A stretch of DNA of 64,000 nucleotides from assembly GCA_021323945.1 (NCBI GenBank), contig JAJPKA010000020.1:620001-684000 (forward strand). Direction: 5' to 3'. This document shows, piece by piece, positions 37,848 to 48,845 of the stretch. Position 1 is the stretch's first letter; every line of letters begins with the position of its first letter. The DNA comes from Pseudomonadota bacterium (GTDB lineage: Bacteria > Desulfobacterota > Binatia > Binatales > Binataceae). The position numbers and the translations under genes are program-made. Under the pieces are notes generated by a model. The model saw only the letters and a list, made by a program, of their open reading frames with translations, was not told the DNA's origin and made no database searches.

Positions 37848-38249
37848 TCAGGCTGTGCGGACTTCGATCTTGCGCGGCTTGGCATGTTCGCGTTTGGGCA
37901 GCTCAACTTCAAGAACGCCATTACGCATGCGCGCCTGGATTCGCGACTCATCAATATCTTCATTCAATGCAAACTGTCTGAAATAGTTACCGACATTATA
38001 TTCAGTGTATACCGGCGAAAGGTTGTTGTAAGTTTCAGGAGAGACGGTGCCGGTAAGCGTGAGTGTACTATCTTTGAGCATTACTTCGACATTCTTCTCT
38101 GATACTCCGGGCATATCCGCCCAAAGCATTAGCTTGTCCGGATACTCACAGATATCAACATCGGGTACGTAATAGCGTCCCGGACGAGTGGACTCGGTTC
38201 CTTGAACCTGTTGTTTTTCTTTAGTCACAATTTCCTGTTCGGGCATCAT
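37848..38249 (-). CDS. Small heat shock protein, Hsp20/alpha-crystallin family (second of a pair)
   Basis: A 133-residue holdase chaperone. The alpha-crystallin domain runs from about residue 25, with PGVSEKNVEVMLKDSTLTLTG and the end of the domain ARMRNGVLEVELPKRE. The start ATG 38249 has AGGAGGG 7 nt before it. Expressed behind the other hsp20 gene with only 36 nt between. Confidence 0.9.
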   Translation of the reverse strand: MMPEQEIVTKEKQQVQGTESTRPGRYYVPDVDICEYPDKLMLWADMPGVSEKNVEVMLKDSTLTLTGTVSPETYNNLSPVYTEYNVGNYFRQFALNEDIDESRIQARMRNGVLEVELPKREHAKPRKIEVRTA

Positions 38250-38285
38250 CGAACATCCCTCCTGCACGGTTAGCTTTAAACGGCA

Positions 38286-38729
38286 TCAGCTGGCAGCGTT
38301 CACCGTGATCTGCCGGGGTCTGGCCGCTTCAACTTTGGGAATCTTCAGCGTCAGGACTCCGTTTTCGTACTTGGCGGTTGCCTGGGCCATATCCAGATCG
38401 TTGGGAAGCTGGATTGAGCGTGAAAACTCGCCGAACGGGCGTTCACGGCGGTGATAGCCGGTCGCATTCACCTCTTCGCGCTTGCGTTCGCCGTGAATGG
38501 TGACGGTTCTGCCGGCGCCCGAGATTTCGAGCTTGCTTGGGTCCAGCCCAGGGATTTCAGAAATAATCACGGTGCCTTCCCTGTCCTCGAAAATGTTGAT
38601 GGGTGGATAAGCGCCATATCCCGAGGGACCGAGGTTAAAGGCGGGGTTGCGGATGAATCGCTCAAGCTCCTGCTGCAAGGCCAGCAGGTTGCTGAGCGGA
38701 TCGAAAGCATCGAACCGAATCAGTGCCAT
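38286..38729 (-). CDS. Small heat shock protein, Hsp20/alpha-crystallin family (first of a pair)
   Basis: A 147-residue holdase. The N-terminal helix (DPLSNLLALQQELERF) precedes the alpha-crystallin domain, with IPGLDPSKLEISGAG, the GERKRE segment, RSIQLPNDLDMAQ and the A-x-x-x-N-G-V-L motif (AKYENGVLTL). The second gene follows 36 nt downstream. Different sequence from its neighbour suggests hetero-oligomers. No CIRCE element is seen upstream. Confidence 0.92.
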   Translation of the reverse strand: MALIRFDAFDPLSNLLALQQELERFIRNPAFNLGPSGYGAYPPINIFEDREGTVIISEIPGLDPSKLEISGAGRTVTIHGERKREEVNATGYHRRERPFGEFSRSIQLPNDLDMAQATAKYENGVLTLKIPKVEAARPRQITVNAAS

Positions 38730-38911: not shown

Positions 38912-39358
38912 TCAAGCGTCCAACAGGTCTGCCAATACACGGGCCGCATGGTCGCGAGGATCAACCCTGTCGTAGACCCTCATCACTCGCCCTTGTTCAT
39001 CAATGAGCACACTGATGCGTTCGGGGTAGCGGGCGCGCGGATCCTGGCAGGCGCCATAGGCCAATGCCAGCGAGCGGCTTGTATCGCTCAGCAGAGGAAA
39101 GTCCAAACTGAGCTTACGGGCGAACGCGGCATTCTCCTCGAGCGGGTCGAAGCTCGCTCCGAGTAGGGCAACGTTACACTGGTCAAAGTAGGGTCTATGT
39201 TCCTGGAAGCTCTTCGCCTCAGTGCTACAAGCAGGCGAGCCGGCTTCCGGAAAAAACCAGATGAGCACCTTGCGGCCGCGCAGCTCGGCAAGCGAGACTG
39301 GTTTGCCTTCGTGCGATAACTGTGTGAAATCGGGAGCCGGGTCGCCTGGCTTGAGCAT
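38912..39358 (-). CDS. Peroxiredoxin (Bcp/AhpC-TSA type)
   Basis: A 148-residue thiol peroxidase. Catalytic Cys44 lies in SPACSTEA, which replaces the common TPGCTTEA. GDPAPDFTQLSHEGKPVSL is at the start and FPLLSDTSRSLALAYGA further on. No resolving Cys is obvious at the Bcp position (residue +5), so it is probably of the 1-Cys or other resolving type. It ends a leftward run with the TPR and radical SAM genes. Confidence 0.9.
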   Translation of the reverse strand: MLKPGDPAPDFTQLSHEGKPVSLAELRGRKVLIWFFPEAGSPACSTEAKSFQEHRPYFDQCNVALLGASFDPLEENAAFARKLSLDFPLLSDTSRSLALAYGACQDPRARYPERISVLIDEQGRVMRVYDRVDPRDHAARVLADLLDA

Positions 39359-39401
39359 ATATCCGCCTTGCTGCCGCCAAGTGTTAAACAAAAGCGGCAG
39401 T

Positions 39402-39887
39402 CTAGTTGAGCATCGCCTGCAGCTCGGCCAGCGCTCGACGACAGAAAGGCTCATCCGGCTGGAGGCGAAGCGCACCCTCGAATTCCTCGATGGCCTTGCG
39501 CACCATCCCTTTGGCGAAGTACACCCGACCGAGATTCATGAACGGGTAGTGACGTGGTTCGTAGCGGGGAGCCCGTTTGGCTTTCTCGAACCAGCCGATT
39601 GCCTCGTCGAGCTGGCCTTTGGCCATCAGGTACGCGCCGATATCGTTGTAGGGGTTGCCGAAATCAGGATCGATATTGATGGCTCGGTAACAGTCGGCTA
39701 GAGCTTCATCAGTACGCCCCATTTGCCCGTAAACCCATCCTCGAAACGTATAAGCTTCGGCCGTTGGGCAGAGCTCGATGGATTCTGTGTAGAGCTCGAT
39801 CGCACGCTCCAGGTCACCCTCCATATGGGCCTGGTAAGCTCTCTGCCAGAGAGAAACTGCCCGGGATTTCAGCCGCTCGTCGTCCAT
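39402..39887 (-). CDS. TPR repeat protein
   Basis: A 161-residue soluble protein of about four tetratricopeptide repeats, for example AYQAHMEGDLERAIELYTES, RGWVYGQMGRTDEALADCYR, DIGAYLMAKGQLDEAIGWFE and GRVYFAKGMVRKAIEEFEGA. It should act as a protein-binding scaffold. Neighbours upstream and downstream on the same strand are the radical SAM and peroxiredoxin genes. Confidence 0.88.
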   Translation of the reverse strand: MDDERLKSRAVSLWQRAYQAHMEGDLERAIELYTESIELCPTAEAYTFRGWVYGQMGRTDEALADCYRAINIDPDFGNPYNDIGAYLMAKGQLDEAIGWFEKAKRAPRYEPRHYPFMNLGRVYFAKGMVRKAIEEFEGALRLQPDEPFCRRALAELQAMLN

Positions 39888-40008
39888 CTAAGCGAGCGTT
39901 AATGCTTGCCGGCAGATTCGTCAAGAGGCGGTGTCCCGCGTCGGTGAGGTCCCCTGGCGACCCGTGTTGCGGGTCGGAGGCATCGCTTTGAGCAAGTCTG
40001 GCACTCTT

Positions 40009-41334
40009 TTAGTAGTAATCCACCGGGTCAATTTGGCGCTTTGCCCCATACCAGAACAGCATATTTTCGGTCAGACCCTGCCAGGTGAATTTACCGGGTG
40101 GCATCAGCAGCCGCTTGAACATCGACTTGAAGGAATAGAATTCTTTGGTGCAGCGCCAGACCCCTTCTTCGACTTGCTGGGGTGAGAGGTTTTTGGGCAC
40201 GAACATACAGCGGAAGTTATTGGTGTACATATCGGCATCGGGGATAATCACCCGATCCTCGGCTTCCAGCTGCTGGCGCATCGGGGTGCCTTTTCTTGGC
40301 GTAACGGTGTTGAAAAAGGCTTCGGGTGCCTTGACTTCGTGCAGAAAGCGTAGCGTGTCGTCAAAGATCCGCTCGTGATCCTGGTCAAGCCCGAACAGGA
40401 AGTTGAGTGAATAATAGATACCATAGTGTTCGAGCCGCTTGAGGAGTTTCTTGTAGTCTTTGGCGTGATTTTGAATCTTGTTCATCGACAGCAATGAATC
40501 CTGACTGATTGACTCCACGCCGATGTTGACGTGAAAGACCCCAGCCTTGGCTGCGAGCTCGAGCAACTCCTCGTCATGGTTGGAATTGACCGTCCATAAG
40601 CACGAGAAGCGAATATTCAGGGGAGCCAAAGCTCTGAATAGCTCTTTGGCGAACTTGTGTTTGCCCGTGATCTGGTCGTCGATAAACTGGAAACGGCGAA
40701 AGCCGGTGATGGCCATCGTCTCTTTGATTTCGCGAACGATGTCTCCGACTGGGCGGGTGCGATAAGTGCCGTTATAAAACACCGGTATCTCGCAGAACGA
40801 GCAGCGATAGGGACAGCCGCGGCTTGCCTGAATCGGCACGGCTTTGAACATATAGCGGTTCAACTTCAGCAACTCGTGGCGCGGGCGCGGTAGGTTTTTG
40901 AGGTCGTGCAGCTTGCTTGCCTTGTAAATCTGCTTGAGCTTGCCATCGCGCCAATCTTGCAGCAGTTCTTCCCAAACCAGGTCGGCCTCACCTTGCACCA
41001 CGGCATCGGCGTGTTTAAGCGCCTCTTCGGTTTGCAGCGTTGCGTGAAAACCGCCCATCACGACTGGAATGCCGCGTTTGCGGAATTCGTCCCCGAGTTG
41101 ATAGGCGCGCAGCGAGGCGCCGATTGTGGTTGTCATTCCGACCAGGTCCCAGCCGGCGTCGAAATCGATATCCTCGAGCCGCTCGTCACACAAGGTGACA
41201 TCGTATTCGGGTGGCGTCAGGCCAGCCATCAGCGGGATCATCAGACCCATGATCAGCCGCCAACGCGTCTTGTGCGGCGTTCCGTCAAGATGCACCGTAG
41301 TCGGTTGAACGAGCAAAATGCGGGGTTTTCTCAC
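40009..41334 (-). CDS. B12-binding-domain radical SAM enzyme
   Basis: A 441-residue enzyme. The N-terminal cobalamin-binding-like Rossmann domain (about 5-150) has no DxHxxG motif clearly visible; the radical SAM domain has the cluster ligands C174, C178 and C181 in RGCPYRCSFC, followed by GGFHATL-type strands earlier and FIDDQITG later. The C-terminal part (TPRKGTPMRQQLE) resembles enzymes of lipid methylation and related families. It follows the CDP-alcohol phosphatidyltransferase gene by 26 nt, which suggests modification of a lipid or its head group. Confidence 0.87.
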   Translation of the reverse strand: MRKPRILLVQPTTVHLDGTPHKTRWRLIMGLMIPLMAGLTPPEYDVTLCDERLEDIDFDAGWDLVGMTTTIGASLRAYQLGDEFRKRGIPVVMGGFHATLQTEEALKHADAVVQGEADLVWEELLQDWRDGKLKQIYKASKLHDLKNLPRPRHELLKLNRYMFKAVPIQASRGCPYRCSFCEIPVFYNGTYRTRPVGDIVREIKETMAITGFRRFQFIDDQITGKHKFAKELFRALAPLNIRFSCLWTVNSNHDEELLELAAKAGVFHVNIGVESISQDSLLSMNKIQNHAKDYKKLLKRLEHYGIYYSLNFLFGLDQDHERIFDDTLRFLHEVKAPEAFFNTVTPRKGTPMRQQLEAEDRVIIPDADMYTNNFRCMFVPKNLSPQQVEEGVWRCTKEFYSFKSMFKRLLMPPGKFTWQGLTENMLFWYGAKRQIDPVDYY

Positions 41335-41360
41335 AAAAGCTCCTTGCAGCGTGTATTTGA

Positions 41361-42599
41361 TTAAGGTTGAATCAACCGGCCAACTGCATCCCTAGTCGGT
41401 TGAGGATGCTGAATGCGACTATTCTTCCGGTACCGATTGGTGAGCCACCAAAGCCCGAGCGCGAACACGTAGGTTCCAAATGCGGCTCCCCAAATGAAGT
41501 ATTGCAGGCGGTCAAAAATCGCGAGAAGCACTAGGATATAGGCGAAATCGCGACCGGTAGCCCTCTCGACTTGTCCGATCCAGCGCATGGCCTTATCACC
41601 GACCATGTTAAGCGCGCGATTGACCGAAACCGCACATGCGCCGAACCCGGCCAGCAGAACTGTCAGGATCCAGAAATAAGAGCTGCTATGGCTTACTCGG
41701 TAGCAGCCAGCTGCGATCCCAATAAAAACCGCAACATGTACGGCATTGTCGGTTAATACGTCGAGCCGCTCGCCGAAGCGCGATTCGAGCATCCGCAGAC
41801 GCGCCAGTTCTCCGTCGACGCCGTCCAAGGTAATCGATACCAGCAGGAGGAGAGCCCCAAGCAGGCGCAACCAGTACGACGTTGTTGCCAATAGCGCGGC
41901 ACAGCCAAAACCAAGAGCGGTGTTGACCAGGGTCACTTGATTGGGCCGAATGCGGGTGCGGGCCAATTGCAGGCTCAATCGCCAAGAGAGTCGCCGATCG
42001 AGCAGCCGAGCCATTAGCGCATCCGTTTGCGCACTTTCCTCACGAACCGACTGGGCGAGTCGAAGCTCTGCCTCTTCGCGGTCCTTAGGCCTACCGTTCA
42101 GCGCGAAGGGTAACCTTGCAGAGTTTAGGAACAGGCCATGACTTTGGCGCAACCCTCCCGGAGCGCGGTTCGAAGCGTAATGGTGCGTTCGCTCCAAAAG
42201 CGCGGCCATTGGTGCCACAGTAATCATGCCGCCCTGTTCCCGATCTGTACTGGGGACCTGGAGTTCGACGCCAGGTCGTGAGAGATACTGCTCGATTACA
42301 CGAGCCAGCTGCGATTGGGCCAGGACCAGGTTGCCGGAAAAGTGGATACATGTGCTTGCCAGGTCGAGGTCTTGCGCCGACTCGAGGTCTTTAAACGTTG
42401 GAACAATTTTCACGGCGGGATGATTCGCGAACTGGCCCAGCGCAGTGATGGCACGCCTCTGATGGTCCGGGCCTGCCTCGATGATGAATCGTGAGATTCC
42501 CAAGCGCTGGCATATAATAATCAAACGCTCCAAGAGAGGGCGTCCGAAAATCGGTTCCTCTGCCCGGGAAGGTAGGGTTATGAGCGCAGTTTCAATCAC
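41361..42599 (-). CDS. Bifunctional-type CDP-alcohol phosphatidyltransferase with degenerate nucleotidyltransferase domain
   Basis: A 412-residue protein. The C-terminal half (about 215-400) is a membrane CDP-alcohol phosphatidyltransferase with the complete motif D259, D262-G263, A266-R267, G276, D280, D284. The N-terminal half (about 1-180) looks like a sugar-nucleotidyltransferase Rossmann fold but lacks the LAAGxGxR nucleotide loop. The layout resembles archaeal/bacterial IPCT-DIPPS enzymes that make di-myo-inositol phosphate or inositol lipids. The radical SAM gene follows 26 nt downstream. Confidence 0.82.
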
Positions 42600-44741: not shown

Positions 44742-44857
44742 CGGTGGGCGCGACCACTTCTTCAAGCCGGCCACCCTGACCATCTTTCACCGAGACCGGA
44801 AGGACATGCTGGCATCGCGGCCGATCGTGCTTAACTTGGGTTAGGGTGAGATTTTGC

Positions 44858-45553
44858 ATGGACAAGCGACTGAACGAGATCGGCAAGGAAGAACGTGAAA
44901 AAGTCTCGCCGGAGTCCTCGCCGGGCACGGGTATTGACCTACGACCGGAGCAGGAGGTGAGGGCCGACTCGGCGGAAAAGGTCGCAGCAGCGGCCAAAAC
45001 GGAATCCGAACCGACAACAGATTCTCTCATCGCGAAGCTGCAGGCACAACTGGCCGAGAAAGATCGCGAAATTGCGGAACTAAGGGACCGATATCTTCGG
45101 GCATTGGCCGAGAACGAAAATGCGCGAAAGCGCCTGCGTCAGCAAAGCGATGAAACGATTCGACTGCAGCGCGAGAACTTCCTGCGTGAGTTGCTGCCCG
45201 TGGTGGATAATCTCGAACGCGCGGTTGACGCCGCCCGGGGTGGCGGTAATGGCAAACCCATCGTAGAAGGCGTCGAGATGGTTCTGCGAAGTTTGCTTGA
45301 TTTCCTTAAGACCCACGGCGTCACGCAGCTTAGCTCGGTGGGGCAACCCTTCGATCCGCAGCTTCATGAGGCGGTCGATCAGATCGAAAGCAGTCAGCAT
45401 CCGCCCAATACGGTAGTAAATGAGTTCCACCGCGGCTATCAGATCGGAGACCGATTGTTACGGCCAGCGCGCGTAGCAGTTGCGAAAAGTGTTTCCAATG
45501 ATAAGGACGGGAGCTCTGGCAGCACCGAGGGCGGTAGCGTTGAAACCACTTGA
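44858..45553 (+). CDS. grpE: Nucleotide exchange factor GrpE
   Basis: DnaK co-chaperone of 231 residues. An acidic, unstructured N-terminus is followed by a long coiled coil ([20 protein letters not shown]) and the beta domain ([20 protein letters not shown], then [19 protein letters not shown]). ATG 44858 is preferred to GTG 44846. The dnaK start follows closely. No hrcA gene or CIRCE element is upstream, so control differs from the Bacillus pattern. Confidence 0.95.
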
Positions 45554-45588
45554 AACGTGGTTATGTATTCTCTAGAGGTTGTCGAAAA

Positions 45589-47514
45589 ATGGCCAAAGTA
45601 ATCGGAATTGATCTCGGCACAACCAACAGCTGTGTCGCGATTATGGAAGGCGGGGACCCGGTCGTTATCGCTAACTCTGAGGGCAGTCGTACGACACCTT
45701 CGGTGGTGGCATTCACCGATTCGGGCGAGCGCCTGGTTGGTCAGATCGCGAAGCGCCAGGCTATTACCAATCCCAATAACACGATTTTTGCCATCAAACG
45801 CTTGATGGGCCGCCGCTATGATGACCCGGAAGTACAGAGGGCGATCAAGGTGCTTCCATACAAGGTCATCAAAAATTCCGATGGCGCGGCGTGGGTCGAA
45901 ATCCGCGACAAGAAGTACAGTCCACCGGAAATCTCGGCATTCATTCTTCAAAAAATGAAGCAGACGGCCGAGGATTATCTCGGGGAGAAGGTTACCGAGG
46001 CCGTCATTACGGTACCTGCATACTTCAATGACAGCCAGCGCCAAGCCACCAAAGACGCCGGCCGAATCGCCGGACTCAATGTGTTGCGTATCATCAACGA
46101 ACCCACCGCAGCATCCCTGGCGTACGGGCTTGATAAGAAAAAGGACGAAAAGATCGCGGTCTTCGACCTCGGCGGTGGCACTTTCGATATCTCGATCCTC
46201 GAACTGGGCGAAGGAGTCTTCGAGGTCAAGGCGACCAATGGTGATACGTTCCTGGGTGGCGAGGATTTCGACCAGCGCGTGATTGACTACCTGGCAGACG
46301 AATTCAAGAAAGACCAGGGAATCGATCTGCGCAAAGATCGAATGGCGCTGCAACGACTCAAAGAAGCGGCCGAGAAGGCCAAGTGCGAATTGTCAACCGT
46401 GATGGAGACAGACATTAACCTGCCCTTCATTACGGCGGATCAGTCCGGTCCCAAGCATCTCAACATGAAGTTGACGCGGGCAAAGCTCGAAGCGCTCTGT
46501 TCGGATCTGCTCGAGCGCCTGGACGGCCCGTGTTTGATCGCCCTCAAGGATGCTGGGTTACGCGCCAGTGATATCGATGAAGTCGTCCTGGTCGGTGGAA
46601 TGACCCGAATGCCCGCTGTGCAAGAGCGCGTACGCAAGCTGTTCGGCAAGGAAGGGCATAAGGGAGTAAACCCAGACGAAGTAGTGGCTGTCGGCGCAGC
46701 GATCCAAGCCGGCGTGCTCAAGGGCGACGTCAAAGACGTCTTGCTACTGGACGTGACACCGCTGTCACTTGGGATCGAGACGCTCGGCGGCGTGTTCACC
46801 AAGCTGATCGAAAAGAACACCACGATACCGACCCGCAAGAGCCAGATCTTTTCGACTGCGCAGGATAATCAGCCAGCCGTCACGATTCGGGTCTTCCAAG
46901 GCGAGCGCGAGATGGCAGCCGACAACAAGCTCCTGGGTCAATTTGACCTGGTCGGTATTCCGCCGGCGCCGCGTGGCGTGCCTCAGATCGAGGTTACCTT
47001 CGACATTGACGCCAATGGTATTGTGCATGTCTCGGCCAAGGACATGGGGACCGGCAAAGAACAGTCGATCAAGATCACGGCGTCGTCGGGCCTGAGCGAA
47101 GAAGAGATTCGGCGGATGGTGCGGGAAGCCGAGCAGCACGCGGCGGAGGACCGACAGCGGCGGGCGTTGGCCGAAGCTCGTAATAAACTTGATAACCTCA
47201 TCTACACTACTGAGAAGACGCTCAAGGATTACGGTTCGCAACTCGACGACAGCTCCCGCAGAGGGGTCGAAGACGCGCTCAGCGAGGCTCGTGGCAAGCT
47301 TGAGTCGAAGAACGTAGAGGAGCTGAATCGGGCAGCTGAGGCGCTGGCAACTGCTTCCCACAAGCTCGCGGAGGCCATGTACAGCAAGACGCGCCAGGCT
47401 CAAGGTGCCGGTGCGAGCGCGGGCGACGGGGCCGGTCCGCGGGGCGGAGACGGAAGCTCGGGTACAGACAAGAAGGAAGACGTCGTGGATGCGGACTTTA
47501 AGGAAGTGAAATGA
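45589..47514 (+). CDS. dnaK: Chaperone DnaK (Hsp70)
   Basis: A 641-residue Hsp70. The start [20 protein letters not shown] is at 45589, with AGAGGTT upstream; the frame is open 39 nt earlier, inside the end of grpE. The ATPase domain has [30 protein letters not shown] and [13 protein letters not shown]; the linker [19 protein letters not shown] leads to the substrate-binding domain. The C-terminal tail is Gly-rich and acidic, ending in [12 protein letters not shown]-like residues ([14 protein letters not shown]). Confidence 0.97.
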
Positions 47515-47708
47515 GGCGGGCCCTGCGACCCCTGCGCACCGGTCGCTGCGCCCGCGCCTTCACGTGTAGCATCATTGGATAGTCGACTCGGAAGGTGGGA
47601 GACGTGGTTCGGCAGCGGCAGCCTGACGTAGAGACCTTGGTTATAAGAGTTCTATTACATCGCGATTACGCTTACCTCGAGAATGTAAGTCGACTAATAT
47701 AAGGCGCG

Positions 47709-48845
47709 ATGCCGTCCAGTGATCGAAAGCGCGACTACTACGAAGTGTTGGGCGTCAGCCGAACCGCTGGCGAAGAGGAGATTAAGAAAGCTTACCGGCG
47801 GTTGGCGATTCAGTTTCATCCAGACCGCAATCCCGGCAATAAGCAAGCTGAGGAACGGTTCAAAGAGATAAACGAAGCCTATCAGGTCCTGTCTGATCCT
47901 GAGAAGCGCAGCCAGTACGACCGTTTCGGTCATGCCGCCTTTGAAGGTCCTCAGGCCGCCGGCGGCTTTGGCGGTTTTGATTTCAGTCAAGGTTTCGAAG
48001 AAGTCTTTTCCGACATCTTCGGTGATTTCTTCGGTACCGGCCGCGGACGTGCGCGCTCGCACAGTCGGCGTGGGGAAGATCTGCGCTACGACCTCGAAGT
48101 TGAATTCGAGGAGGCGGCTCGGGGAACGGAAAAAATCATCAAGTTTCAGCGGCTGACGATTTGCGAAGGATGTAACGGGACACGTGCGCGGGGCGGTGCT
48201 GAGGGCGTTCGTACTTGTCCTAATTGCCGCGGCACTGGTCAAGTTCGTACTCAGCAAGGCTTTTTCTCAATCTCGACCACCTGCGGTCAATGCCGCGGCG
48301 AGGGAATGATAATCGCCGATCCTTGCCCGCGATGCCAAGGGCAGGGACGGGTGCGAAAGCCAGTGTCTCTATCGGTGCGCATCCCGCCGGGAGTCGACAA
48401 CGGCTCGAGGCTTAAGCTGCGAAATGAGGGAGAGGCCGGTTATGCCGGCGGCGCCCCGGGCGATCTCTATGTGGTCGTTCACGTCAAAGAGCATCCGCTG
48501 TTCGTTCGCCAGGACAATGATGTTGTGATCGAGGTTCCAGTGAGCTTTCCGCAGGCGGCGCTCGGTGCGGAACTCGAAGTGCCGACACTTGACGGGAAGA
48601 TCAAGCTCAAACTGCCACCGGGCACTCAGTCCGGCAAGATTTTTCGCCTCAAAGGGAAAGGATTCGTTGACCTTCACGGATATGGGCGCGGGGATCAACT
48701 CGTGCGGATCGTGGTGGAGACTCCGCGCCGCCTAACAGCACGCCAGCGCGAGCTGCTGGAGGAGTTTGCCAGGACCTCGGGCGAGGATGTCAACCATCCG
48801 ATGGCCAAGGGCTTCGTGGACAAGCTCAAAGAAATGTTCGGTTGA
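47709..48845 (+). CDS. dnaJ: Chaperone DnaJ (Hsp40)
   Basis: A 378-residue type-I J protein. The J domain has HPD in QFHPDRNPG; a Gly/Phe-rich linker ([14 protein letters not shown]) follows; four zinc-binding repeats [24 protein letters not shown] and CPRCQGQG (the first lacks its final Gly); then the substrate-binding C-terminal domains. It lies 194 nt after dnaK and ends at a strong terminator. Confidence 0.96.

Follow-up and report, generated by a model that had tools for sequence, protein, structure and literature searches.

A conserved CDP-alcohol phosphotransferase and radical SAM gene pair in Binataceae and its possible place in a head-group pathway tied to hopanoids

The gene pair and its two proteins

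We analysed a 64,000-nucleotide stretch (the window) of a 3.74 Mb Binataceae genome (Desulfobacterota, class Binatia; assembly GCA_021323945.1, contig JAJPKA010000020.1, here contig 8 or C8), in which an initial annotation had described a run of four genes. All four were found there on the minus strand (Table 1). They encode a fused nucleotidyltransferase-like/CDP-alcohol phosphotransferase (CDPA), a B12-binding radical SAM protein, a TPR protein and a peroxiredoxin, and the reported 26-nt gap between the first two genes was exact. The conserved unit comprised these first two genes only. Its gene context tentatively points to a hopanoid-associated head-group pathway of CDP-(amino)inositol type, with CDPA as its transferase.

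Conservation of the pair had been set beforehand as a test by gene-order survey, and it was borne out. Of 35 genomes in the host's family, 31 have both genes side by side and at full length (29 of the 30 loci L009-L038, plus L086 and L091; G, L and f numbers denote genomes, loci compared and families). CDPA was on another contig in G003, absent in G008 and G027, and shortened in G016, where it still lay beside the radical SAM gene. The gap between the genes ranged from −14 to 48 nt in 18 loci and was negative in seven of them, as measured to a radical SAM start projected from the window's protein. Outside the class, the pair was again adjacent in one locus (L188). The two genes are thus coupled, yet under very different constraint: mean pairwise identity among family loci, over partly different sets, was 87% for the radical SAM protein (n = 20), the most conserved of 13 genes measured, and 50% for CDPA (n = 17), with HpnH at 82% (n = 8), CoaX at 77% (n = 12) and the class III aminotransferase AT3 at 72% (n = 16). 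Conservation served as the guide for gene calling in these GC-rich loci, so that some genes start too far upstream and others were missed, for instance the stand-alone nucleotidyltransferase NTPT in L088 and L154. A scan of genome contigs for relatives recovered two. Second, more distant copies of CDPA, 41-44% identical to that of the window and not near this radical SAM gene, were seen at L095:8229-9725 (G003) and L096:8330-9718 (G007).

As the initial annotation had proposed, CDPA joins an intact CDP-alcohol phosphotransferase domain to a nucleotidyltransferase-like domain that lacks its LAAGxGxR loop. The transferase signature DxxDGxxAR(8)GxxxDxxxD was complete at residues 259-284 in a pattern search (D..DG..AR.{8}G...D...D), and the protein scored 50.7 bits against PF01066 (cut-off 22), which places it in the CDP-alcohol phosphotransferase family. 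The N-terminal domain had no match in Pfam, NCBIfam or PDB sequence searches. Its structural model was of low confidence (mean pLDDT 51; ten-residue blocks at 57-83 over residues 1-140) and resembled the folds of IspD and CMP-Kdo synthetase (best Foldseek E 3.4e-5); this likeness to cytidylyltransferases justifies the label nucleotidyltransferase-like. A profile of N-domains from CDPAs outside the family matched NTPT at E 1.4e-7 (probability 91%), whereas that of the family's own CDPAs reached just E 3.5e-4 (16%). A pattern search found no AAG.G.R loop in the window's CDPA, and LAAGxGxR was seen, by eye, in none of 41 aligned CDPA rows. Loss of the loop is therefore old, and we rejected the N-domain as an active nucleotidyltransferase.

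Among NCBIfam models, the transferase domain scored best against inositol enzymes, in each case below the cut-off for membership: 73.3 bits for the bifunctional IPCT/DIPP synthase NF041135 (cut-off 580; CDPA also lacks the loop), 66.3 bits for archaetidylinositol-phosphate synthase NF040950 (cut-off 180) and 45.6 bits for PIP synthase NF045883 (cut-off 170). The best PDB sequence match was AF2299 (E 1.3e-16 over residues 188-324), which together with AfDIPP synthase is the nearest solved relative.

The radical SAM protein carries the motif CPYRCSFC and matched PF04055 at 68.1 bits (cut-off 29.5). Its B12-binding match was marginal (PF02310, 33.3 bits against a cut-off of 32.1) and suffices to class it as a B12-binding radical SAM protein. 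Three named enzymes were rejected as its identity, namely HpnJ (TIGR03471, 76.3 bits against 577.6), HpnR (TIGR04367, 48.7 against 650) and BchE (TIGR02026, 101.4 against 481.35). It lies far from HpnJ in the tree, and a canonical HpnJ (726 bits) is encoded separately in the host. The protein was found in 40 of 41 host-family genomes, at 83-95% identity where full length; elsewhere in the class no match exceeded 43% identity. In the tree it is sister to orthologues from the phylum families f23 and f66 (51-54% identity). CDPA adjoined none of these orthologues in 16 fetched loci, and five f23 genomes have a CDPA operon elsewhere (L240-L243, L245). A relative stood near HpnH in three of 60 phylum loci with radical SAM homologues (L185, L186, L188). 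The structural model had a mean pLDDT of 46.

Homologues at about 35-39% identity elsewhere in the class (L105-L109) lie near the gene clusters c19 and c20, read as acyltransferases without a profile, and perhaps mark a different lipid modification. The f23/f66 orthologues share conserved neighbours of their own (k1, k2, k3) in many of the loci compared (L171-L182, L190-L193). Gene clusters were labelled by likeness to a few representatives, and the labels TetR, LLM, TolC-like and acyltransferase-like were read from sequences, not taken from profile searches.

Table 1. Positions in the window of the four genes and of the motifs and domain described in the text.
Feature	Position	Strand	Evidence
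CDPA: N-terminal nucleotidyltransferase-like domain and CDP-alcohol phosphotransferase, about six membrane helices, 412 aa	41361..42599	minus	profile, PDB sequence, model and motif searches
Degenerate nucleotidyltransferase-like domain of CDPA, residues 1-190, without LAAGxGxR	42030..42599	minus	alignment, model, profile comparison
CDP-alcohol phosphotransferase signature of CDPA, residues 259-284	41748..41825	minus	pattern search
B12-binding radical SAM protein, not HpnJ, 441 aa	40009..41334	minus	profiles, tree, motif
CxxxCxxC iron-sulphur motif (CPYRCSFC) of the radical SAM protein	40792..40815	minus	pattern search
TPR protein, outside the conserved unit	39402..39887	minus	profile; tblastn of family loci
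Peroxiredoxin (AhpC-TSA/PrxQ-like), 150 aa	38912..39364	minus	AhpC-TSA match over residues 6-128

Operon, hopanoid genes and inositol-phosphate synthase around CDPA

Nineteen family loci, the window among them, had the adjacent pair. In 15 of these, the ATP-grasp protein ATPG and neighbours from the set HAD1-NTPT-ATPG-AT3-HAD2 (usually with AT3) lay divergently beside it, HAD1 and HAD2 being phosphatases (HAD). Of the other four loci, the window, L073 and L078 had no operon there and L074 had just HAD1, at the end of its contig. The window's genome carries the operon at C8:584834-589273, about 71 kb from the pair, and the Gfo/Idh/MocA oxidoreductase GFO on contig 15, together with HpnH, FPP synthase, an alcohol-dehydrogenase-like gene, SHC, Dxr, HpnC and HpnD. 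L147 has an unbroken run between SHC and NTPT: NTPT-ATPG-AT3-HAD2 is followed by GFO, HpnH, FPP synthase and SHC.

NTPT is a MobA-like nucleotidyltransferase by Pfam with the AAGxGxR loop in 32 of 32 copies, and its profile matched sugar-1-phosphate nucleotidyltransferases and the inositol-1-phosphate cytidylyltransferase 2xme. The nucleotidyl transfer step is probably performed by this separate, intact gene. AT3 was assigned to the class III aminotransferases by Pfam. For GFO the best NCBIfam match was inositol 2-dehydrogenase, at 72.6 bits and far under the cut-off of 355. The window genome's ATPG had no Pfam match, and the ATPG profile weakly resembled inositol trisphosphate 5/6-kinase (E 2.7e-4 over 50 columns) and RimK-type ligases (E 3.7e-4 over about 200 columns).

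The association with hopanoid genes extended beyond the host's family. In other families of the class, HAD1-NTPT-ATPG-AT3-GFO-CDPA was followed by HpnL-like and HpnK genes (L156, L157, L161; HpnK of L156 scored 329 bits, over the cut-off of 232.6). L154 had the same order with NTPT not called, and L102, L153 and L158 were shorter or re-ordered. Of the 42 class genomes from other families that carry CDPA, 17 have it no more than 5 kb from HpnJ, as counted from our tables (G038, G039, G046, G066, G068, G069, G078, G084, G085, G086, G088, G089, G102, G103, G111, G112, G145).

At phylum level the CDPA profile matched in 42 of 395 genomes (E up to 1e-45). We compared 36 loci, comprising all matches at this threshold outside the host's family except those in G463 (L188) and G040; many match over the transferase domain and not the degenerate N-domain, L240-L242 among them. 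Eleven of the 36 showed one or more matches to HpnH, SHC, HpnI, J, K, N or M, in several cases to HpnN, HpnK or SHC alone; 15 held AT3 and ATPG, and four held inositol-phosphate synthase (INO1). In the 60 radical SAM homologue loci, which were shorter on average, the corresponding counts were 6, 0 and 1, and a single locus also held CDPA.

That locus, L188, contained an INO1 fragment at the contig end, CDPA, radical SAM, NTPT, HpnH, squalene-synthase-, HpnM- and HpnL-like genes and, further on, an HpnN-like gene. HpnH scored 486 bits against a cut-off of 225, the four "-like" genes stayed under theirs, and NTPT matched best the inositol cytidylyltransferase part of IPCT/DIPPS (135.9 bits, under the cut-off of 580). 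CDPA, NTPT, ATPG, AT3, GFO, an HpnL-like gene and INO1 stood together in L240-L243, and CDPA was accompanied by matches to HpnM, HpnN, HpnI, HpnH and SHC in L244, L247 and L261. In three f53 loci (L254, L259, L263) a CDPA-like transferase domain directly precedes an NTP-transferase match, and two of these loci have a further such match in front of the domain.

Co-occurrence was counted over 148 genomes of the class, with Fisher p values that ignore shared descent. CDPA was found in 79 genomes, ATPG in 53, SHC in 90, HpnH in 85, HpnJ in 82 and inositol-phosphate synthase in 74. ATPG was nearly a subset of CDPA, 52 of its 53 genomes carrying both. Of the 79 genomes with CDPA, 74 also had SHC or HpnH (37 of 42 outside the host's family); the figures were 18 of 69 for genomes lacking CDPA and 52 of 53 for those with ATPG. 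Inositol-phosphate synthase accompanied ATPG in 48 of 53 genomes, compared with 26 of 95 lacking it; outside the host's family the former figure was 14 of 16.

Correlated losses within the host's family were also informative. G008 and G027 have no CDPA or ATPG genome-wide, and their loci are without HAD1, NTPT and AT3; HAD2 and the radical SAM gene stand there on one contig, separated by about 0.4-0.6 kb, with HpnH and SHC adjoining. CDPA of G016 is shortened to 316 aa; the stretch holding membrane helices 1 and 2 is missing from it, as is the first half of the motif. Inositol-phosphate synthase had no match in these three genomes, nor in G033, G019 and the incomplete G005, all of which still have CDPA. 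The losses link CDPA with the operon and, more loosely, with inositol. G008, G027 and G016 all keep the radical SAM protein at 83-85% identity to that of the window, which separates it from the CDPA product.

The other two genes of the run showed no such conservation. The TPR gene had no tblastn match in 25 fetched family loci, some of which do not surround the pair, and the peroxiredoxin matched in one, the locus of the genus's other species. We therefore rejected both as functional partners and regard them as likely bystanders, so that the run of four described initially shrinks to the first two genes. An alternative peroxiredoxin frame of 187 aa, starting at 39475, would overlap the TPR gene. 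Two Hsp20-like genes lie downstream of the pair (37848-38729) and a GrpE-DnaK-DnaJ run upstream (44846-48845), both named by reading open reading frames, not by profile; among the 25 loci close Hsp20 matches occurred only in L073, from the genus's other species. A further CDP-alcohol phosphotransferase of 216 aa (123.6 bits) is located at 400-870; the genome has six such matches in all.

A candidate pathway and its alternatives

The gene sets, their order, the motifs and the correlated losses were observed directly; from them we infer what the substrates and the acceptor are, in which order the steps run and what the radical SAM protein does. Inositol-phosphate synthase would provide inositol phosphate, which a phosphatase, the Gfo/Idh oxidoreductase, the class III aminotransferase and the ATP-grasp protein may convert to an (amino)inositol phosphate or to a derivative that carries an extra group. 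The genes for amination are reminiscent of the way inosamines are made in streptomycin biosynthesis. NTPT would then form the CDP derivative, and CDPA would move the phospho-cyclitol onto an acceptor, most likely a hopanoid polyol, its own nucleotidyltransferase domain being a presumed structural or regulatory remnant. The HpnL-like protein may move the product. The radical SAM gene probably shares a transcript with CDPA, and its enzyme would modify the hopanoid part, probably independently of CDPA; a role on the hopanoid skeleton is a first guess. The phosphodiester proposed in the initial annotation thus stays plausible from gene context, and is refined here to a probably inositol-derived and hopanoid-linked one. 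That it forms a new class of phosphorus-containing hopanoid in this phylum, with (amino)inositol phosphate placed on a hopanoid polyol via CDP-cyclitol and, in the host's family, the hopanoid itself modified by the radical SAM protein, is possible but doubtful.

Several observations weigh against this pathway. The window's own genome shows no linkage among the pair, the operon, the hopanoid cluster and inositol-phosphate synthase. Elsewhere in the class CDPA as a whole is weakly tied to inositol-phosphate synthase (21/42 vs 18/65, p 0.024), and just one of the nine f5 and f6 genomes with CDPA near HpnJ has the synthase, so that the head group may differ there. No match to it was found in five genomes with ATPG (G016, G033, G019, G146, G147), and five genomes have CDPA without SHC or HpnH (G040, which also has operon genes, G053, G080, G102 and G103). 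The excess of hopanoid markers at CDPA loci over radical SAM homologue loci (11 of 36 vs 6 of 60) is just moderate, and the latter do not constitute a random control since some of these homologues are themselves near hopanoid genes. All HpnL-like proteins tested were under the HpnL cut-off, and the matches of ATPG, about equally weak, would suit a kinase or a ligase. The acceptor is the weakest step: six-helix CDP-alcohol phosphotransferases take a soluble acceptor and those with a lipid acceptor have extra helices, according to PMC4634129. CDPA looks six-helical, which favours a soluble acceptor, and the assignment to a hopanoid-tied pathway is for this reason kept tentative.

The six-helix form would also suit an ordinary glycerophospholipid, phosphatidyl-(amino)inositol or its phosphate, formed from CDP-diacylglycerol and a cyclitol phosphate or from CDP-cyclitol and diacylglycerol. 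The hopanoid genes would then be neighbours because both products serve the same membrane. We consider this unlikely, although the best scores of CDPA are to inositol-phosphate transferases including PIP synthase, and a similar gene core was proposed for inositol glycero- and sphingolipids in Bacteroidetes (PMC9246714). It does not readily account for the presence of CDPA among HpnH, SHC, HpnI, HpnJ and HpnM and HpnN matches in several families, nor for the near-constant company of SHC or HpnH in class genomes with CDPA (74/79) or ATPG (52/53). The nearest solved relatives, AF2299 and AfDIPP synthase, do not process lipids, as stated in PMC4634129, and a DIPP-synthase-like enzyme making a soluble di-cyclitol phosphodiester solute would match them; with HpnL-like (flippase-like) and HpnN-like transporter genes adjoining, such a role seems very improbable.

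The initial annotation had the radical SAM protein modify the novel phosphodiester made by CDPA as the next step. Adjacency in 31 of 35 family genomes, the short or negative gaps and the renewed pairing in L188 are what such a sequence of reactions would lead one to expect. Retention of the radical SAM protein at 83-85% identity in three genomes with CDPA lost or truncated, among them G008 and G027 without any CDPA, speaks against it, as do the f23/f66 orthologues, none of which was beside CDPA in 16 loci, and the presence of CDPA in one of 60 homologue loci. This model is improbable in our view, and we retain the hopanoid-tied head-group pathway with a separately acting radical SAM protein as the tentative assignment.

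Relation to known systems

Among bacterial analogues of sterols hopanoids are a major group, and they persist as molecular fossils. Were the proposal correct, a charged inositol-phosphate hopanoid would represent a new kind of lipid, a sterol-like lipid with an inositol-phosphate head; it would account together for several unassigned neighbours of hpn genes and provide a short gene set, and the radical SAM protein would be a new enzyme candidate in the same hopanoid setting. A literature search over titles and abstract openings, with most subscription journals outside its reach, returned no CDP-alcohol phosphotransferase in hopanoid synthesis and no inositol-bearing hopanoid, and titles and abstract openings on B12-binding radical SAM proteins with hopanoids gave no inositol or CDP-alcohol link to hopanoids. 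A 2025 survey of Alphaproteobacteria reports no obvious new candidate genes near hpn clusters besides hpnA, B, L and M (PMC12583986), which makes the clusters described here, from another group, a fresh source.

HpnI, HpnK and HpnJ, the genes of the hopanoid cyclitol ether, are the known hopanoid head-group genes and adjoin CDPA in several families of the class. HpnJ is a radical SAM protein like that of the window, which is nevertheless a different one. AF2299 likewise has a cytidylyltransferase-like domain before a six-helix CDP-alcohol phosphotransferase (PMC4634129), whereas the N-domain of CDPA lacks the catalytic loop and gives no sequence match to it, and CDPA scores far under the DIPPS cut-off. 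In Caulobacter ceramide diphosphoglycerate synthesis, PMC12275187 describes CpgD, a stand-alone cytidylyltransferase related to inositol-1-phosphate cytidylyltransferase and proposed, as NTPT is here, to activate the polar group of an unusual bacterial lipid; that system involves neither inositol nor hopanoid, and transfer is assigned there to CpgA.

The closest parallel is the putative "alternative cluster" of Bacteroidetes, in which CDP-inositol would be the head-group donor for inositol lipids (PMC9246714, which also cites the CDP-inositol pathway of Jorge et al. 2015). Both share inositol-phosphate synthase, a stand-alone NTP transferase, a CDP-alcohol phosphotransferase, a HAD hydrolase and a nearby lysylphosphatidylglycerol-synthase-like gene. 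INO1, NTPT and CDPA are clustered in L188 and L240-L243, where the search did not cover HAD, and the window's genome contains the synthase, NTP transferase, CDP-alcohol phosphotransferase and HAD hydrolase with pair, operon and synthase unlinked. The aminotransferase, the Gfo/Idh oxidoreductase, the ATP-grasp protein, the degenerate NTP-transferase domain and the hopanoid genes are additional here, as is the B12 radical SAM protein in the host's family and L188. The hopanoid pathway would, on our best reading, be a variant of the CDP-inositol lipid pathways proposed elsewhere.

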